Position numbers and translations under genes: made by a program
Assembly: GCA_947498025.1 (NCBI GenBank)
Contig: CANMJR010000011.1
Span: 1 to 64,000 of the forward strand
DNA: 64,000 nucleotides
Direction: 5' to 3'
DNA from: Helicobacteraceae bacterium
GTDB lineage: Bacteria > Campylobacterota > Campylobacteria > Campylobacterales > Sulfurimonadaceae
Shown here: one piece after another, positions 13,840 to 42,973 of the stretch
Layout: each line of letters begins with the position of its first letter
Numbering within the stretch: the stretch's first letter is position 1
Notes under the pieces: model-generated
Database searches by the model: none
Told to the model about the DNA's origin: nothing
The model's input: the letters and a program-made list of their open reading frames with translations, nothing else

Positions 13840-14085
13840 ATGTTTAAAGTAACAAATACGGAAAAAGGGGTAAAAGCCTTTATAACAGGGTTTAAAACTG
13901 AGGAGTTGTCTGCAAAGATTGAGGAGTGTAAAAATGGTTCTTGCAGTTGCGATTGCGACCCTCAAATTATGCAGAAGATTGAAAATATAGAAGTTTCAAG
14001 CGAAAACGACGGAACAAGCATCACGGTTACAGGCGATGTAGATGCCAAAGAGTTAGAACCGTTAATGAGAGAGTGTTTGTTATAA
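13840..14085 (+). CDS. Small Cys-rich hypothetical protein of ars operon
   Basis: 81 aa, CKNGSCSCDCDP cluster. Confidence 0.65.
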   Translation: MFKVTNTEKGVKAFITGFKTEELSAKIEECKNGSCSCDCDPQIMQKIENIEVSSENDGTSITVTGDVDAKELEPLMRECLL

Positions 14086-16383
14086 AAAAGTAAAAGCTTT
14101 GCTTGCACTGTTTAAATTGTTTATATTTTGCAGTGCTATTTCATGACCGTTTTTTCGACGTAAAAATTGAAAAATATGTGCATATTCGTTGCGTAAATTG
14201 GTCATAAAAATTCCCGTATCATCGCTTCCTACTACGACATATGGTTTAGGGTCATCAGCTCTTGAGAGTCCTAACCAGCGTTTCAAATGATGTTCATCGT
14301 AGTTTTTATAATAACTGATTCGTACATTACTCGTCGGAAGCGTCTCGATTGCAATATTTTTTTCATTCAAAAATTTAATCATCATATTTTGCAATTCTCT
14401 CAACTCATCAATACCAAAAATCTCCAAAGGTTCAATTTGAATCATTTGATTATACTTTGCAATTCTACAGCCTTCATGATAAGCTTCATAGATTGCACGA
14501 ATATCTTCATCAATTACTTTATACTTTTGTAGTTCTTTAGATTCAAAATCTTCAAAAAAACTCGGTTCTCTCCATCCTAAAACAATGAACGGGTCATATT
14601 TTCTGCATTTCCAAGCTTGAATAATTTGATGCATTGAGTAGTATTGGGCACTACAATATATTTCAGCAAAATAGCGTCTAATAGAGGCTTCTAGTTTAGC
14701 CAAATAATGATACATGGTTTGATTTTCAGAGCAAAAATCATAAGCAAAAACAAGGTTGTCGAGCCACTCCCCTTTTTTAATTGTGAGCTTACTATCATAT
14801 AACCGCTGATTCCATAATTCAGGTTCAATACCTAATGCTGTTGCATGTCCTATGCGATTGCCGGATTGCATCTCCAAGAAATCTACAGCTTCATACACCA
14901 TGCGCAAACCCGAGAGAATATGCACAAAATCCTCTCCAGCATGGTAAGTAAAATTTTTGTATCCCAAAAATGCCAGTTTTCTAAAAATAGGCGAAAATGC
15001 TTCCGGTGATGCATGCAATTCATTCGCCGCGGCATCAAAACCGACAATCAACTCTTTATAAATATATTGACCTTTTTCATTATGATATTGCATGCTTCCA
15101 AGTAAAATTTCAAGTGACTTTTTATTTTTTATTCTTAGTTCCAAATCTCGAAATGTAATAATTTTATTAGGGTTTCTTTTATCAAGCTGTTTTATAAAAT
15201 GCGGAACAAGTTTGAGTTTAAAATCTTTTTGTAGCTTTTTATCATAACCTTTATAAATAGCTTTAAGTAATTTCAATGATTTTGTTAAATCATCTTTTGG
15301 TGCAAATCTCCCTTCCAAAACAGATAGCGAATTGTCGTACATCCCTTGGAGTTGATGATACCTATTGTTATACTCCTCTTCTGTTAATTCTCGCAATTCA
15401 TTAACGGTAATTTTTTGAAACTGATCAAAACCGACCTGTGTTTTTTGCTGAACCAAAAGCTTTTGAAAATAGGCATAAATCAATAAATAGTAATGAAAAA
15501 GATGCCCGAAATAGATGCTTTGTGAACTTTCCAAATATTCTAAGCTTCGAATGATAAAAAGCGATTCGTACTGCATTTTTGAATCAAGAGATATATCATT
15601 TTCAAGTGAACTTATCGGATGATTACGCGAAGCATAATTTAGAGTTTTTCCAATATCAAATTCATCTTTTGTAAAATATTCTTTTTTATCACAACTATCA
15701 TAGATGATTGATAGCAACTTGTCTCGAATCTGAGAAGCAATCTTTAAAAGTCTGTAAAAATCATCTTGCTCAAAATGACCGATTTGAAGATACTGCTCGG
15801 TAACCGTGGAATTTTTTAGCGATTTTTTTATATTTGCGTAGAATTTATCGGGCTGTTGCAATGCATCATGCCAAACAATATCTATCTCTGTTGTGCCTGT
15901 AAGATGCATGTGCATCTCATTGAGTCCACCGTTGTTAATAATATAATCAAGTTGCGGTTCATAAATAGAAGGCAATGCACTTTTTTCAAATATGGTTTTT
16001 ATTAAATCTTCCTGTTTGATGCGAAAAGATTCTTTTGCATGTTTGTAAATTTTATAAGAAATAATCAAAAGAGGAGAAACACTTAAAATAGTATTTTGCC
16101 ACTTCTCAAACTGCTGGTTTTCTACATAAATTTTTTCACCGCGAAAGATGAGTATTTTAGAAAGTTCTTCAAGGCTATTGGTTAATAACTCATTTGTAGA
16201 TTTATTTTTTGTAAAATCTTCCATAACATTCTTGAATATATAGTCAGGTTTGTATGGGTCTTTTGTATGTGCTTCGACAAAGAGATAGTTTTGTAACTCT
16301 TTGTCGTTTAGATGACCGTTATAAAAATATTTTTCAAGGACTCTTTGTGAATCAAGAAAGGCTATTGAAAGTAGAGTTTTCAT
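14080..16383 (-). CDS. rdrB: RADAR system adenosine deaminase RdrB
   Basis: 767 aa with ADA motifs: NEMHMHLTGTTE (HxH), TYHAGEDF, IGHATALGI, VVGSDDTGIF; directly downstream (6 nt) of the large ATPase gene. Confidence 0.9.
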   Translation of the reverse strand: MKTLLSIAFLDSQRVLEKYFYNGHLNDKELQNYLFVEAHTKDPYKPDYIFKNVMEDFTKNKSTNELLTNSLEELSKILIFRGEKIYVENQQFEKWQNTILSVSPLLIISYKIYKHAKESFRIKQEDLIKTIFEKSALPSIYEPQLDYIINNGGLNEMHMHLTGTTEIDIVWHDALQQPDKFYANIKKSLKNSTVTEQYLQIGHFEQDDFYRLLKIASQIRDKLLSIIYDSCDKKEYFTKDEFDIGKTLNYASRNHPISSLENDISLDSKMQYESLFIIRSLEYLESSQSIYFGHLFHYYLLIYAYFQKLLVQQKTQVGFDQFQKITVNELRELTEEEYNNRYHQLQGMYDNSLSVLEGRFAPKDDLTKSLKLLKAIYKGYDKKLQKDFKLKLVPHFIKQLDKRNPNKIITFRDLELRIKNKKSLEILLGSMQYHNEKGQYIYKELIVGFDAAANELHASPEAFSPIFRKLAFLGYKNFTYHAGEDFVHILSGLRMVYEAVDFLEMQSGNRIGHATALGIEPELWNQRLYDSKLTIKKGEWLDNLVFAYDFCSENQTMYHYLAKLEASIRRYFAEIYCSAQYYSMHQIIQAWKCRKYDPFIVLGWREPSFFEDFESKELQKYKVIDEDIRAIYEAYHEGCRIAKYNQMIQIEPLEIFGIDELRELQNMMIKFLNEKNIAIETLPTSNVRISYYKNYDEHHLKRWLGLSRADDPKPYVVVGSDDTGIFMTNLRNEYAHIFQFLRRKNGHEIALQNINNLNSASKAFTFL

Positions 16384-16389
16384 AATTTA

Positions 16390-18918
16390 TTAAATTTCTT
16401 TTTTCATTTCTTTAATAAGTCGGCGTAATGTTGGCAACGAAACATTTTTATATTTAATCTTCAGCCAATATCTTAAATAGTTTGCAATAGTAACTATTGC
16501 ATAACTTTCCCACCCTTTTATTTGTTTAATAATTTCCTTTTGTTCTTGTGAAGATAATGTAGCGAAATCTATTTTTGGTGATGGTATAACAGATACAGGT
16601 AAATCTGATATTTCACTTTCAGATTCTGAATCATCATTCGCATCTATATCTATATTTGCTAAGACTATAAAATATTTACTATCTAATTGTAATAATGGAC
16701 ACTCAAATAAATAATCAAACAATGTATATGTATTTTCATATTCTTTTAGTAAAAAGTATGTTCCATCTTTATCAATGTCATACCGAATATCATTTTTGAG
16801 TTTTGAATAAAAATATTCGCTACTCGTTGATACATTGTCTTGATTCAGTATTGAATTGTTTTTTCTATTTTTTTCACGATTTTCATATAGCTCAATTTCT
16901 ATATATACTGCATTCAAAAAACCTGCTACATATAGTACAAACATCACAGCATAATTTTTATTGTTATTTTCACTTCTATCTTCAATAACATATATTGTTT
17001 TAGCAAATTTAGTCCATATTTTCGACAATACATATAAGGGAATTTTTGCAATTTTGTCAGCTTTTTTAGACCACTCAATTAAATCTTGTGGAAAGTTCTG
17101 AATCTCTGTAAGATATGAAAGCAAACCAAAAAAAGAGATAAAATTATAACTCTTTTGTTTTGATATCACAGCTTGAATCAAGAAATCAATATTCTTTTGA
17201 TTCTTTAAACTAGTTGAGCTAATAAACACATTTCCAAAATATCTATAGCCATTTCTCAAGGTTGTAGATTCTAACTTTAATGAGGATAGTATTTTTTCTG
17301 AAATAGATAAAGAGTTTCGAGTGTCTAGTACAACATTATCAATAAATTCTACTCTTTTTTCTTTTAGTTCAATCTTCTCATACCCTTCATAAGCATAACC
17401 AACTTTAATAAAATATGATAAATAATCCTGAGGTTCTAAAAGATGATTTGCCATCATATTTAGATAGAGCATTGTTATATTATCATCATCCTTCGCAAAG
17501 TTTGGTGTTAATTTTAAATGATTCTCTTTACTAAAATTCTCATTTAAAATATATACTGCAAGCAGATTTAAGAACTTTTCTCTATTTGGTAATTCTACTA
17601 AACTATATGTTCCCAATTTCTTTTTTAGCGTTGTATAAAAAGTATGTCGAAATCTATCTATTAAATCTGGACTCAGCCCTTTTTCTGGATGCCAAACTTG
17701 AAGGAACTGAATAACAGATCTCGTTGACTGTGTCAACAATGTACGTTCATAATATTGTGTATAACTACTATTTTGTGTAAGGTAAATCTTTTCTATCATA
17801 TCAATAACACATTTTTCTAGTTCTTGAGGCTCTTTGAGACTTTCAAATTCTACTTGTAATCTTTTTTTCTTATTTTTTTCAAAATCATCTAATTTATTTT
17901 GAGACTCTTCACCCAATTTATCATTTCTATTCTTTTCTAATAGGTCTGAATGTTCTTTAACAATCAACCATTCATCTTTTAATTCGAAAAGATTTTTAAG
18001 ATCAATTCTATTTTCAGGCTTCAAAACTTTAGTTAAATACTGCTCTTCTAAATGCTCAATTTGCCCTAAATATTTTTCTGTTCCCTCGTAATCTTTTAAA
18101 GTCTTTTTAGGATCCATCTTTTCCCATTGAAGCTGTCTCACAAGTGTAGAATACAAATCAATATCACCCAGCATCGCAATAATAAGTTTACGAGAAGTAA
18201 GATACTTACGAAGTGTTTCAAGAATAGCGGTACCTTTATCAAGTGAAGTATCAATATCATCTAAAATTAAAAAGAAAGCTTCTTTTTCAATAATTTTCAA
18301 ACTTTCATCTATAAATATATGAAAGTTTTTTTCTAAATCCACTCCTTGTTTTGCATTGGAAAGACCTTTTTCCAAAATAAGTTCCTGTGAGTCCCACATA
18401 CCATCATTTAAATGGTTAGAACCGACACCGTCAAGCATACTCAATCCGCCTGCAAGTTTTTTAAGGCTCTCTTTCCAAGCTTTGTACTTTATACTCTTAT
18501 CATCACATTTTTCGCATTTAATAAAGTCTTCTATTCTGTCTTTTATAAGTGTAATAATATTTAAAAGAACATGTTCTTTCGTCTCAATCAATGTTGGATC
18601 AATAATACCTAATGAACAAATATTTTTTAAAATTTTTTCTTCAGAATCACTTTTTTTTGCATCTTCAACACTAAGAATAAATGAAGTTTTGCCCATACCT
18701 CTTTTACCATTAATCAAAATAGTATTATGAACCCTATCAATTGTATTTTTGTTTTTATCCTTACAATCTTCTTCTCCACATTTGCTTGTTTTAATATCAC
18801 TTAGAACTTTTTTTATGAGTTTTTCAAAACTTTCTTGTGCATTCGCCTGTATAAGATTTGCAGTTTTATATGCTTTTGTATCGGTTTGTTCAAGATTAAT
18901 CACTATTCTTTCGTTCAT
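16390..18918 (-). CDS. rdrA: RADAR system ATPase RdrA
   Basis: 842 aa; Walker A INGKRGMGKTSF, Walker B FFLILDDIDTS, IAMLGDIDLYSTLVRQLQW; paired with rdrB. Confidence 0.88.
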   Translation of the reverse strand: MNERIVINLEQTDTKAYKTANLIQANAQESFEKLIKKVLSDIKTSKCGEEDCKDKNKNTIDRVHNTILINGKRGMGKTSFILSVEDAKKSDSEEKILKNICSLGIIDPTLIETKEHVLLNIITLIKDRIEDFIKCEKCDDKSIKYKAWKESLKKLAGGLSMLDGVGSNHLNDGMWDSQELILEKGLSNAKQGVDLEKNFHIFIDESLKIIEKEAFFLILDDIDTSLDKGTAILETLRKYLTSRKLIIAMLGDIDLYSTLVRQLQWEKMDPKKTLKDYEGTEKYLGQIEHLEEQYLTKVLKPENRIDLKNLFELKDEWLIVKEHSDLLEKNRNDKLGEESQNKLDDFEKNKKKRLQVEFESLKEPQELEKCVIDMIEKIYLTQNSSYTQYYERTLLTQSTRSVIQFLQVWHPEKGLSPDLIDRFRHTFYTTLKKKLGTYSLVELPNREKFLNLLAVYILNENFSKENHLKLTPNFAKDDDNITMLYLNMMANHLLEPQDYLSYFIKVGYAYEGYEKIELKEKRVEFIDNVVLDTRNSLSISEKILSSLKLESTTLRNGYRYFGNVFISSTSLKNQKNIDFLIQAVISKQKSYNFISFFGLLSYLTEIQNFPQDLIEWSKKADKIAKIPLYVLSKIWTKFAKTIYVIEDRSENNNKNYAVMFVLYVAGFLNAVYIEIELYENREKNRKNNSILNQDNVSTSSEYFYSKLKNDIRYDIDKDGTYFLLKEYENTYTLFDYLFECPLLQLDSKYFIVLANIDIDANDDSESESEISDLPVSVIPSPKIDFATLSSQEQKEIIKQIKGWESYAIVTIANYLRYWLKIKYKNVSLPTLRRLIKEMKKEI

Positions 18919-19094
18919 ATCTGCCCTTTAAAATAAAATATAATAACGGTTGATTATACTTGTTAAAAAATAAAAAGCATCTTTTTACAAAAAATATTTT
19001 CATAAGGATTTTTGCATAAGCTGTAAGGGCATGTGGATTTTCGAACTGAAGGCAAGCCATGCTTCCAAAGAAAAAAGCATGGCTTGTAAAAATT

Positions 19095-19316
19095 CTAGTG
19101 TTCCCCTCTTGATACAATCGTTGCAACTATCTCATCGGGAAGTTTTTTTACACCGGGTTTAATGTTCCAGACATCACCGTTTGTCAGCTCAACATTGCCG
19201 CCCCATTTTTCATCCGTGTCGAACTCAAGAGATACGATTATCTCCTCCATATCTCTTTTTGCAAGGTAAAAAAGCACCTGCCCTTTCTCGTTTTCTCGTA
19301 ACATTATTGTTGCCAT
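19095..19316 (-). CDS. nifT: NifT/FixU family protein
   Basis: MATIMLRENEKGQVLFYLAKRDMEEIIVSLEFDTDEKWGGNVELTNGDVW matches NifT pattern. Confidence 0.85.
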   Translation of the reverse strand: MATIMLRENEKGQVLFYLAKRDMEEIIVSLEFDTDEKWGGNVELTNGDVWNIKPGVKKLPDEIVATIVSRGEH

Positions 19317-27004: not shown

Positions 27005-29846
27005 TTACAAATCATAAAACTTATCAACAAACTTTACTATTTTATCCAACACTCTTGGGATGATTACTTTTCTCTCAAGCAGTTTTGGTTTTACTCTCAA
27101 AGTCTTTGCGACATCGTCTTTTAGAGGTATCCTCTCTTCGTAGATGTAGGTATCCACAACTTTTTTTACCTCATCGCATATCAAGTTTTCATCTCTGCAG
27201 AGTGCGTCATACGCCAGTTCCTTTTCAACTTCCCAAAACTTCTCAAACTCATTTTCTATGTTGTCCGAGTCGCTGATGCCTTGCATGTTCTCATTGATAA
27301 ACTTCTCTATCAACTCTTTTTTGCTTCTGAGATTCACCTGTCCGCTTATGATGTTTAAAATATTATTTTTTTGGCTCTCTTTCTCTGTTTCGTCTGCATC
27401 TTTATAACGGGAAAGTAGTTTTAAAATATAGGACACATTTATCTCATCAACCATAATCAGCTCTAATTCAAAGTCCACATCTTCGAGAATAGAAACTTTT
27501 TCTTTTGTTTGTGTCGGTTTGATAATTTCATATAAATCAAGATATTTGCTTTTATAATCCTCAAACTCTTGTACATGCATAGACAAATCAGACCACTTAA
27601 AATTACTAAACCCCTCAAGAATATTTTTGCCTCTCATAATCTCACGAAAAGCTCTTACAAACTCTAACTCTCCCCTGAGCCATAAGTTCATCCACGCTTG
27701 CAACACTTGGAGCTATTTGCATTAATGTTAAAAACGCCTCATTAAACTTTGCCACATACTCCTCATACGGCTGCATCAAAATAATATCTTTGGCATTTAT
27801 ATTTGAAAAAAGGGCTATCGCATCATCCGTATTCTTTTTGAGATTTCTAAAACAGACAATATTCCCCTGCGATTTTTTCTCATTTAGTATTCTGTTTGTT
27901 CTTGAGAAGGCTTGAACAAGTCCGTGGTATTTGAGGTTTTTATCGACATAGAGGGTGTTGAGGCTTGGAGAGTCAAAACCTGTTAAGAACATATTGACCA
28001 CCAAAAGTATATCTATCTCTCTATTTTTTACTTTTTTAGAAATGTCATTGTAGTAGTTATAAAAATTCTGCGAATCTTTCGTGCTAAACTTTGTCCCAAA
28101 CATGGCGTTGTAATCGCTTATGTAGCTCTCTAGCTTGTCACGGCTGTGTTGGTTGATGTGTGCTTCGTCCACATTTGCACCGTCTGCTTCATCTAACTCA
28201 GAAACGCCGTTTGCATCTTTGTCTTCTTCGTTTGCACTGTAGGAAAAAATGGTAGCTATTTTGAGATTATGTTTTTTACTTTTAAAAAGGTCGTAGTATT
28301 TTGTAAGTGTCTCAATGCCACTCACGCACATCATCGCCGTAAACTCTTTGTTATGCGTTTTTCGCGGATGGTTTGCAATAATATAGTCGGTTATCTTTTC
28401 TAGCCTACGGGGACTCTCTAAAAGCTCTTTGGTATCAATCTCTTCTACATCTATGTCGATATTTGTTGCACTTCCCTCTTTTTCTTTGTATCTGCCTACA
28501 TACTCGACCGAAAACTTCAAAACATTGTCATCCCCGATAGCGTCCATAATCACATATTTATGCAAAGGTGCATCAAAAAGCTCCGTTGTGGTGCGTTTGC
28601 CGAGTTTATTGCCCGTTGCGTTTTCAACAAAGATAGGCGTACCCGTAAACCCTATCATCTGATACTTATTAAAAAACTTCGTAATAGCTAAATGCGTCTC
28701 TCCAAACTGGCTTCTATGGCACTCATCAAAGATAAAAACAATATGCTTATCTCTAAGTTTTTCCATCATCTGCAAGTAGTGTTTTTTGCTTATGGCGGAG
28801 TTTAGCTTTTGAATGGTTGTAACAATGAGTTTCGTATCATCGCCAAGCTGTTTGACAAGTGCGTTTGTGTTGTCGGTTCCATCGACTGAGCCATTGCTAA
28901 AGCTGTTAAACTCCTTGTTGGTTTGGTAATCAAGGTCTTTTCTATCGACTACAAACACCACCTTTTCGACATGGGGAAGTTTCATCAAAATTTGTGCGGT
29001 TTTAAAAGAGGTAAGAGTTTTTCCGCTTCCCGTTGTGTGCCAGATGTAACCGTTTTTATCACTGTTTTCTACTCGCTCAATGATGGCTTCCGTGGCATGA
29101 AACTGGTAAGGTCGTAAAATCATAAGTATTTTTGGCACGGTCGCTAAAACAATATATTTACAAATCATCTTTGAGACATGGCATCGCTCCAAAAACACAT
29201 TTGTAAACTCTTCAATATTTGTTATGTTTTTATTCTTATCATCCGCCCAAAAAAAAGTCTGCTTAAATGATTGCTTACGATTGTTTGAGTAGTATTTGGT
29301 GTTTACCCCATTACTAATAATAAATATCTGTACATAGTTAAACAGAGCATTGTTTGAGCCATACGAGTGTCTTTGGTAGCGGTTGATTTGGTTAAAAGCC
29401 TCTTTGAGTTCCAAGCCTCTGCGTTTGAGTTCTATCTGCACAAGAGGCAAACCGTTTATAAGAAGTGTCACATCGTAACGGTTTTTATAAACGCCGTCCA
29501 CGGTGACTTGTTGCGTGACTTGAAAAAGGTTTTGACACCAGTGTTCCGAGTCTAAAAATTCGATGTATTTAGTTGTTCCGTCATCTAACGATAAAACAAA
29601 TTTATCTCTTAAAATCTTTGCTTTTTCAAATACTGAACCTTTATTTATGTGGTTTAGCACTTTTTTAAATTCACTCTGGCTCATGCTAAAATTATTATGT
29701 TTTTCGAGTTGCGCCTTCAGGTTGGCTTCGAGTGCCGTGTCATCTTTGATGGTAATTTTTTCGTACTCTAAATTTACAAGTTGTTTGACTAGGTTTTCTT
29801 CTAGTATCGCTTCGCTTTCTAAAGAAACTGCGTTTTGTTTGCTCAT
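27005..29846 (-). pseudogene. hsdR: Type I restriction endonuclease subunit R, frameshifted
   Basis: N-part 27642-29846 (GYIWHTTGSGKTLTSF, FIFDECHRSQFGE, GFTGTPI) and C-part 27005-27706 in another frame; homology-like sequence continues LMAQG|ELEFVRAFREIMRGKN at a CCCC (G4) tract 27672-27675. Confidence 0.9.
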
Positions 29847-41403: not shown

Positions 41404-42444
41404 ATGGAACTTCGTCTTAAAAATATAGGTATGATTCAAGAGGCTAATGTAAAAATTGATGGTCTCACGGTCATAGCTGGTGAAAATGATACAGGAAAGA
41501 GTACATTAGGTAAAGCGTTATTTGCATTGATTAAATCCGATAATATAGTCGAACGAACAAAGGCTTCACAACAACGAGCAAAAGAGATTTTAGCAATAAG
41601 GCTAAATTTAGTCTTTGATGGTAATGTTGCACTAAATGGAACAGCAGCTAGTATTGCTTTATTTGATAATAAAAAAGAGATAGCTTACGCAGATATTATG
41701 GGTAAAAATCTCGTGAGAACATTTAGGAGAGGAAATGATAGCGGCAATCGTTTTTTTGATGCAACTATCATTCAATCACCAATTGTTTTTGATATGGTTG
41801 ATTTTTTTAATAGTATTGGAAAAATGAAAGAAAGACAGAAATTTGATTATGAGCTTGATTTTGATATAAAATACCCTTATATTATATGGGATTTATTTGA
41901 CAAAATTTCTAAACAAAATCCTTATGCTCTTATTAAAATGCAAATTAAAATACAAGATGAAATTCAGAAAATTATAAGTGGTGAATTTAAACTAGAAAGC
42001 GGTCAATTCTTTTTCTACAAATATATGACTGCTAAAGCCCTAAAAATGGAAATGGCAAATACAGCTTTTGGAATTAAATCGTTTGGTCTATTACAACTAC
42101 TTAATGAAAATTGTTTTCTCAATAAAAAAATATGTTTAATTCTGGATGAACCAGAAGTTCATTTACACCCAAAATGGCAACTTGCAATGGCAAAAATTAT
42201 TGTTCAATTAGTTAAAAATGGAGTAACTGTTTTAGTAAACTCGCATAGCCCATATATGCTAGAAGCTTTACAAAGATATAGTGAGTTGGAAAAAGTTCGG
42301 TCAAATTTTTATCTTGCAAACGATGGTAAAATTGAACAAATTGAAGAAAGTAATAGTAAAACATTAGCTGAAATTTTCAATAAATTATCTGAACCGTTTG
42401 AAGAGTTTGAAAAAATGGATAGTGAGGCTTTGCTGAATGGCTGA
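41404..42444 (+). CDS. AAA ATPase (OLD/AAA_21-like)
   Basis: LTVIAGENDTGKSTLGKALF Walker A; ICLILDEPEVHLHPKWQ; VTVLVNSHSPYMLEAL. Confidence 0.92.
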   Translation: MELRLKNIGMIQEANVKIDGLTVIAGENDTGKSTLGKALFALIKSDNIVERTKASQQRAKEILAIRLNLVFDGNVALNGTAASIALFDNKKEIAYADIMGKNLVRTFRRGNDSGNRFFDATIIQSPIVFDMVDFFNSIGKMKERQKFDYELDFDIKYPYIIWDLFDKISKQNPYALIKMQIKIQDEIQKIISGEFKLESGQFFFYKYMTAKALKMEMANTAFGIKSFGLLQLLNENCFLNKKICLILDEPEVHLHPKWQLAMAKIIVQLVKNGVTVLVNSHSPYMLEALQRYSELEKVRSNFYLANDGKIEQIEESNSKTLAEIFNKLSEPFEEFEKMDSEALLNG

Positions 42445-42973
42445 TATTAATCAGTTTATTCGAGAATACTTTCTTTATAAAAGTACTTTTAAAATAACCA
42501 GCTTCGATGATTATAATCATGTTTATTTGTGTAATGATGAAAGTCAAGAGGTTATAAATTTTGATCAAATAATTAGCATAAAGTATCCTGACTCTAATAA
42601 ACGACCAAAATCTTTTGATGCACTTTATATTGATAATGCTGATATATACTGTATAGAATTTAAAAATCAAAAACCATCTATCATAAATAATACAGAAATC
42701 AAAGGTAAATTGGAAGATGGAAAAAGTGAATTAGATGCATTATTTACGGAATTAAATATTTCCAAAGATAATTACAATTTTATTTACTGTGTATGCTATC
42801 AAAATTGCACAGAGCCTAGAGATAGATATAAATGTGGAGTTGCAAAAGGTGCTATACAATTTGATTTAAAACAATATAAAGAAAAAGGAATTGTCAAAGA
42901 AGTTTACACAAATCATGTTGATTTTTTCACAAAACAATTCCAAAAGAAAACATCCAAAAATTTACGGTGTTAA
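42437..42973 (+). CDS. Hypothetical protein, possible PD-(D/E)XK-like nuclease partner
   Basis: FDALYIDNADIYCIEFKNQKPSI (D-x(n)-ExK pattern); 8-nt overlap with ATPase gene. Confidence 0.55.
   Translation: MADINQFIREYFLYKSTFKITSFDDYNHVYLCNDESQEVINFDQIISIKYPDSNKRPKSFDALYIDNADIYCIEFKNQKPSIINNTEIKGKLEDGKSELDALFTELNISKDNYNFIYCVCYQNCTEPRDRYKCGVAKGAIQFDLKQYKEKGIVKEVYTNHVDFFTKQFQKKTSKNLRC

Follow-up and report, generated by a model that had tools for sequence, protein, structure and literature searches.

A probable standalone RADAR gene pair (rdrA–rdrB) of the E. coli type downstream of nifT in a Sulfurimonadaceae bacterium

Gene Content and Neighbourhood of the Locus

The window, which is the whole 64,000-nucleotide stretch of Sulfurimonadaceae DNA analysed here, contains two large genes, rdrA and rdrB, which lie in tandem on the same strand with a spacing of 6 nt, the arrangement used as a criterion for RADAR (Table 1). 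The initial annotation had described these two open reading frames, and its coordinates, lengths and 6-nt gap are all confirmed, as are the motifs it listed: GKRGMGKTSF and FFLILDDIDTS are present in the 842-aa product, and HMHLTG, HAGED, GHAT, and SDD in the 767-aa product. The GC contents of rdrA (0.279) and rdrB (0.322) are lower than those of both the nif flank (0.425) and the ars side (0.386), which fits acquired DNA. Both genes are under purifying selection, with dN/dS values of 0.12 for rdrB and 0.31 for rdrA against the closest relative, the L024 locus of the Sulfurimonas sp. S03.Bin072 metagenome-assembled genome. Searches of viral contigs and phage records yielded no relative.

Table 1. 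Features of the rdrA–rdrB locus and its flanks (window positions).
Feature	Position	Strand	Description
81-aa ORF	stop codons within 14080–14085		Convergent with rdrB; stop codons of both within 6 nt
arsR (HTH_5) and arsenate reductase			Low-molecular-weight phosphatase-type reductase; rdrB side, convergent with rdrAB
rdrB	14080–16383	−	767-aa adenosine deaminase superfamily protein
rdrA	16390–18918	−	842-aa AAA+ ATPase
Probable ribosome-binding site, AAAGGG	18924–18929	−	Before rdrA; read directly
Promoter-like element, TTAACA-N18-TATATT	18937–18966	−	Roughly 19 nt upstream of the rdrA start; kept in L024
Perfect 14-bp hairpin	19053–19086	−	In the nifT–rdrA gap; no run of T residues follows it
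nifT	19095–19316		PF06988; more nif genes beyond

The signals upstream of rdrA are to be read with the result that matches in promoter and terminator scans are no commoner here than in shuffled sequence. The hairpin is kept in L024 and recurs as a degenerate version after nifT in genome G493, where RADAR is absent from that position; its role is probably in termination or processing of the nif transcript. A search for tRNA genes at the junction and an Rfam search around the locus returned no tRNA gene and no RNA family, respectively.

The flanks had been described as an ars operon and nif genes; the nif genes, arsR, and the arsenate reductase are indeed present, but "operon" is generous, as no arsenite pump is encoded among the three ars-side ORFs. 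In most of the nearer Sulfurimonas relatives nifA directly follows nifT in convergent orientation, while the same slot holds an AAA_14 ATPase gene in genome G361 and other genes in G493. The L024 locus shares with the window the slot after nifT, an RdrB that is 89% identical and a near-identical upstream region, and differs in its RdrA (68% identity over the whole protein) and in what follows: its order is nifT–rdrA–rdrB–toxin/antitoxin (ParE-type)–nifA, where the window continues from rdrB into the convergent arsR and arsenate reductase genes. The slot downstream of nifT carries variable cargo in Sulfurimonas, and the nif/ars position, which had been considered notable, reflects this variable content and no special link; different genes occupy the slot in relatives, which led to the rejection of a special functional tie between RADAR and nif or ars.

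The comparison with L024 also bears on the history of the cassette. The nifT genes are 79.7% identical, whereas the whole nifT–rdrA intergenic region is identical at 173 of 176 aligned bases, the near-identity starting about 10 bases past the nifT stop codon, and the synonymous divergence of rdrB (0.50) is lower than that of the nif genes (0.61–1.05). It therefore seems that the two lineages exchanged the cassette, or its upstream part at the least, after their nif genes had diverged.

Assignment to the RADAR Family

The best matches of both proteins in PADLOC (RdrB, 3e-28; RdrA, 4e-25), NCBIfam (RdrB, 1.4e-48; RdrA, 3.3e-39), and the PDB are all RADAR proteins, which bears out the identity first proposed for the pair: the ATPase falls inside RdrA, the deaminase stands apart from ordinary adenosine deaminases, and no metal ligand is missing. 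Among solved structures, chains of the E. coli RADAR cryo-EM structures are the best matches of RdrB (2.1e-73, residues 141–763) and of RdrA (1.4e-31, residues 63–316). With a three-row RdrA profile the PDB match grows to 4e-49 and extends over the entire AAA+ part through sensor 2, and a further, weaker segment aligns collinearly in the C-terminal lobe. In the phylum survey, rdrA adjoins rdrB in all eight RdrB-type loci.

The NCBIfam bit scores (RdrA, 135 against 600; RdrB, 166 against 800) lie far below the equivalog cut-offs of NF041743 and NF041744, which are naming thresholds and describe no biological feature. The proteins of E. coli W284, which are of the experimentally tested type, also score below these cut-offs on the same models (RdrA, 130 bits; RdrB, 116 bits), so that the low scores of the window pair are no argument against RADAR membership and mean that the models were built around another RADAR branch. 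W284 is a near relative of E. coli MSI001, whose RdrA is essentially identical to the chain in PDB 8hr7/8fnt (2126 bits), which ties the clade to experimentally tested proteins. The standard naming models thus overlook this branch, even its proteins of the type with solved structures. The expectation that such genes are easily misannotated is supported by these low scores and holds for deposited records, in which the Rhizobium-plasmid and some E. coli relatives appear as "hypothetical protein", "archaeal ATPase", or "adenosine deaminase".

No accessory membrane gene, rdrC (Csx27) or rdrD (SLATT), lies beside rdrAB, the neighbours being nifT on one side and arsR, the arsenate reductase gene, and the 81-aa ORF on the other. 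The initial annotation was right about this absence; its notability does not stand, since the standalone form, rdrAB with no accessory gene, is among the three RADAR subtypes described (PMC7699616). The missing rdrC/rdrD was for this reason rejected as the mark of a new variant. The kind of system is already known and the window locus is a further RADAR member; no paper joining Sulfurimonas, defense systems, and RADAR was found in the collection searched.

Phylogenetic Position and Related RADAR Loci

In both the RdrA and the RdrB trees, the window pair groups with Rhizobium plasmid loci, a Pantoea plasmid, and E. coli; the two trees agree on this nine-row clade, as does a repeat of the RdrB tree. 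When two further loci are included in the RdrB tree, a Campylobacterota subgroup comprising the window, L024, G507, G637, L016, and L017 is supported at 99/96. Compared with E. coli RADAR (PDB 8fnt, 8fnw, 8hr7), the window pair agrees in gene order, in the catalytic residues, in the three insertions of RdrB, and in an AAA+ part with a crown region, likewise lacks an accessory gene, and falls in the same clade in both trees; it differs in an RdrA that is about 100 aa shorter, in changed interface residues, and in an overall identity of 32% (RdrB) and 27% (RdrA). Judged from sequence, the window pair is a real, intact, and probably functional RADAR; it is of the standalone subtype and belongs to the E. 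coli branch, which it extends into nitrogen-fixing Campylobacterota.

The RADARs of Sulfurimonas STC_122 (L016) and G106 (L017) belong to the same Campylobacterota sub-clade and have no membrane accessory gene that could be seen, but their RdrB is 34% identical to that of the window and their cassette overlaps at its end with a DndC-like gene (L016:3150-4634 and L017:6631-8103). These two DndC-like genes are 65% identical, and one lies upstream of rdrA while the other is convergent with rdrB. A DndC-DndD-DndE-like set lies near the RADAR of G637 (L088:10538-13987). A phosphorothioation link at the window RADAR was rejected, as the DndC-like neighbour is confined to other branches.

The genome that contains the window carries a complete second RADAR on contig C26 (L015:3830-9285 of G000), located between clpS and argF and encoding a 917-aa RdrA and a 900-aa RdrB. 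It shares the rdrA–rdrB pair and all catalytic residues with the window locus; its RdrB, which is only 28% identical to the window protein, belongs to the other major RdrB branch. G361 carries a related copy beside argF. A second genome with both RADAR types is G507, in which the second locus (contig 53) has a broken rdrB, split into two ORFs of 416 and 467 aa (L091:4827-7529). Hydrophobic-looking proteins are encoded near rdrA genes of the other RADAR branches (L018:12707-13411, L021:2094-2903, L022:4162-4875, and L091:1573-2235); none of the four has a PADLOC match and those of L018, L021, and L022 have no Pfam match, and they are candidates for rdrC (Csx27-like).

The RdrB Deaminase

The zinc ligands His152, His154, His498, and His530 of the E. 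coli protein and its catalytic Glu501, in the numbering of PMC9994260, correspond to the RdrB residues His158, His160, His481, His513, and Glu484, respectively, and Asp721 and Asp722 are also conserved. The motifs are spaced far more widely than in an ADA-like protein of a relative (HxH at 158 versus 14, HAGE at 481 versus 194, and DD at 721 versus 275). Judged by motif spacing only, RdrB is extended at its N terminus and the deaminase fold is interrupted twice, by about 140–160 aa at each of the three places, and these three insertions are spaced as in E. coli RdrB. The E. coli interface residues Glu595–597 are changed in the window protein, and they vary across other RADAR members too.

The RdrA ATPase and Its C-Terminal Lobe

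The ATPase residues of RdrA are present: Walker A (Gly76-Lys77-Thr78), Walker B (Asp220-Asp221), sensor 1 (Asp252), and sensor 2 (Arg400). By sequence alignment, every published catalytic residue of RdrA and RdrB is thus kept in the window pair. The crown insertion, the four-helix bundle that contacts RdrB, is represented by an alignment that runs collinearly through the E. coli crown region, while the E. coli interface residues Lys150, Glu151, and Arg162 are changed and vary across other RADAR members too. The C-terminal part of RdrA is probably helical, and its last ~130 residues are hypervariable between relatives. In profile comparisons, the C-terminal lobe of the window group matches that of the E. 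coli/Rhizobium group with an E value of 2.8e-5 over 119 columns, against 0.7 for the other RADAR branch and 0.21 for RdrB as a negative control. AlphaFold models of RdrA reach a mean pLDDT of 33.9 from a single sequence and 37.8 from three sequences, the only eligible ones.

Proposed Mechanism and Alternative Readings

It is very likely that the window pair is an intact standalone rdrA–rdrB operon of the E. coli type that acts like the E. coli system. From this analogy we infer how the oligomers assemble, what the substrate is, that phage activates the system, and that the RdrA tail serves as the sensor. RdrA would assemble into a heptameric AAA+ ring of two layers, and RdrB into a dodecamer with a hollow interior; infection, which the C-terminal part of RdrA would sense, would activate the complex, and RdrA would dock on RdrB. 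The RdrA-docked RdrB would then convert ATP and dATP to ITP and dITP, which would poison the nucleotide pool and limit phage growth.

Of the other readings, the one that holds up best, although it is unlikely, is that the pair is RADAR by descent with a different activity, for example on another mononucleotide substrate or in RNA editing, the activity initially put forward for Citrobacter RADAR. RdrB is just 32% identical to the tested E. coli protein, and RNA editing, the original proposal for RADAR, is still disputed (PMC9994260); on the other hand, the active-site residues and the three insertions all match E. coli RdrB, an enzyme whose substrates are ATP and dATP and which does not act on a hairpin RNA (PMC9994260). 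Less likely still is a decayed, non-functional remnant: the second RADAR of the genome could make the window copy redundant, and the other dual-RADAR genome, G507, does carry a broken rdrB, but the window ORFs are full length, their catalytic residues are kept, and their dN/dS values are those of constrained genes.

The two remaining readings concern the identity of the deaminase, and the family scores and the architecture led to the rejection of both. An ordinary purine-salvage adenosine deaminase beside an unrelated ATPase, which would account for the Pfam A_deaminase match above its cut-off, has a negligible probability: such enzymes are single-domain proteins of about 330–390 aa that score best with ADA models, whereas the window protein scores 166 bits with the NCBIfam RdrB model and 52 with the ADA model, is 767 aa long against 335–341 aa for the ADA-like proteins of relatives, contains the three insertions, and lies beside a gene that matches RdrA and is retained in every RdrB-type locus examined. 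A CARF-fused adenosine deaminase (Cad1), an effector of type III CRISPR that belongs to the same deaminase superfamily and is reported to convert ATP to ITP (PMC11645235), is just as improbable, as the weak PADLOC CARF_ADA match (6e-10) falls in the deaminase part and is exceeded by RdrB models by at least 15 orders of magnitude, and the window protein has an AAA+ ATPase partner, no CARF match, and no adjacent cas or other CRISPR gene.

Divergence of the RdrA Tail

The structural study named the trigger of RADAR as an open question, put forward the C-terminal domain of RdrA as a possible sensor, and found conservation to be generally low away from the ATPase site (PMC9994260). Between the window and L024, RdrB is 89% identical and the AAA+ part of RdrA 78%, against 34% for the last 130 residues of RdrA. 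The corresponding values for RdrB, the AAA+ part, and the last 130 residues are 89/87/36% for E. coli W284 and MSI001, 76/79/49% for L016 and L017, 68/80/38% for L018 and L020, and 60/61/31% for L015 and L019. The tail is therefore far more divergent than RdrB and the AAA+ core in all five pairs, no genome being common to two of them. In the L018–L020 pair, the RdrA proteins are about 80% identical up to about residue 720 and about 32% identical thereafter.

This divergence within pairs is consistent with the sensor proposal and is no proof of it: divergence is also expected of a tail with little structural importance, and the alignment of the tail is uncertain at such low identity. The C-terminal part of RdrA is the likeliest candidate for the infection sensor. 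A more tentative suggestion, to which we give somewhat less than an even chance, is that the end of RdrA acts as a fast-changing and perhaps exchangeable module of specificity, attached to an AAA+ core and an RdrB effector that are conserved; different RADARs, including the two of this genome, would then watch for different phage signals. Natural pairs with a near-unchanged RdrB and ATPase core and a differing tail would allow tail-swap tests of phage sensing.

Two of the RdrA genes found beside RdrB are unusually short (L021:5273-7198, 641 aa; L089:9956-11257, 433 aa), and either much of the C-terminal part is missing from these proteins or the genes are truncated.

Other Putative Defence Genes in the Window

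The type I restriction gene hsdR is present as two overlapping ORFs (27005–29846) whose matches to a single profile follow one another (2–704 and 736–938), and it therefore looks frameshifted near 27.64–27.71 kb. At 41404–42973, within the nif region, an OLD/AriA-like ATPase gene (best PADLOC match PD-T4-4_A, 1e-32) overlaps a 178-aa gene with no PADLOC match; together, the two may constitute another defence system of two genes.
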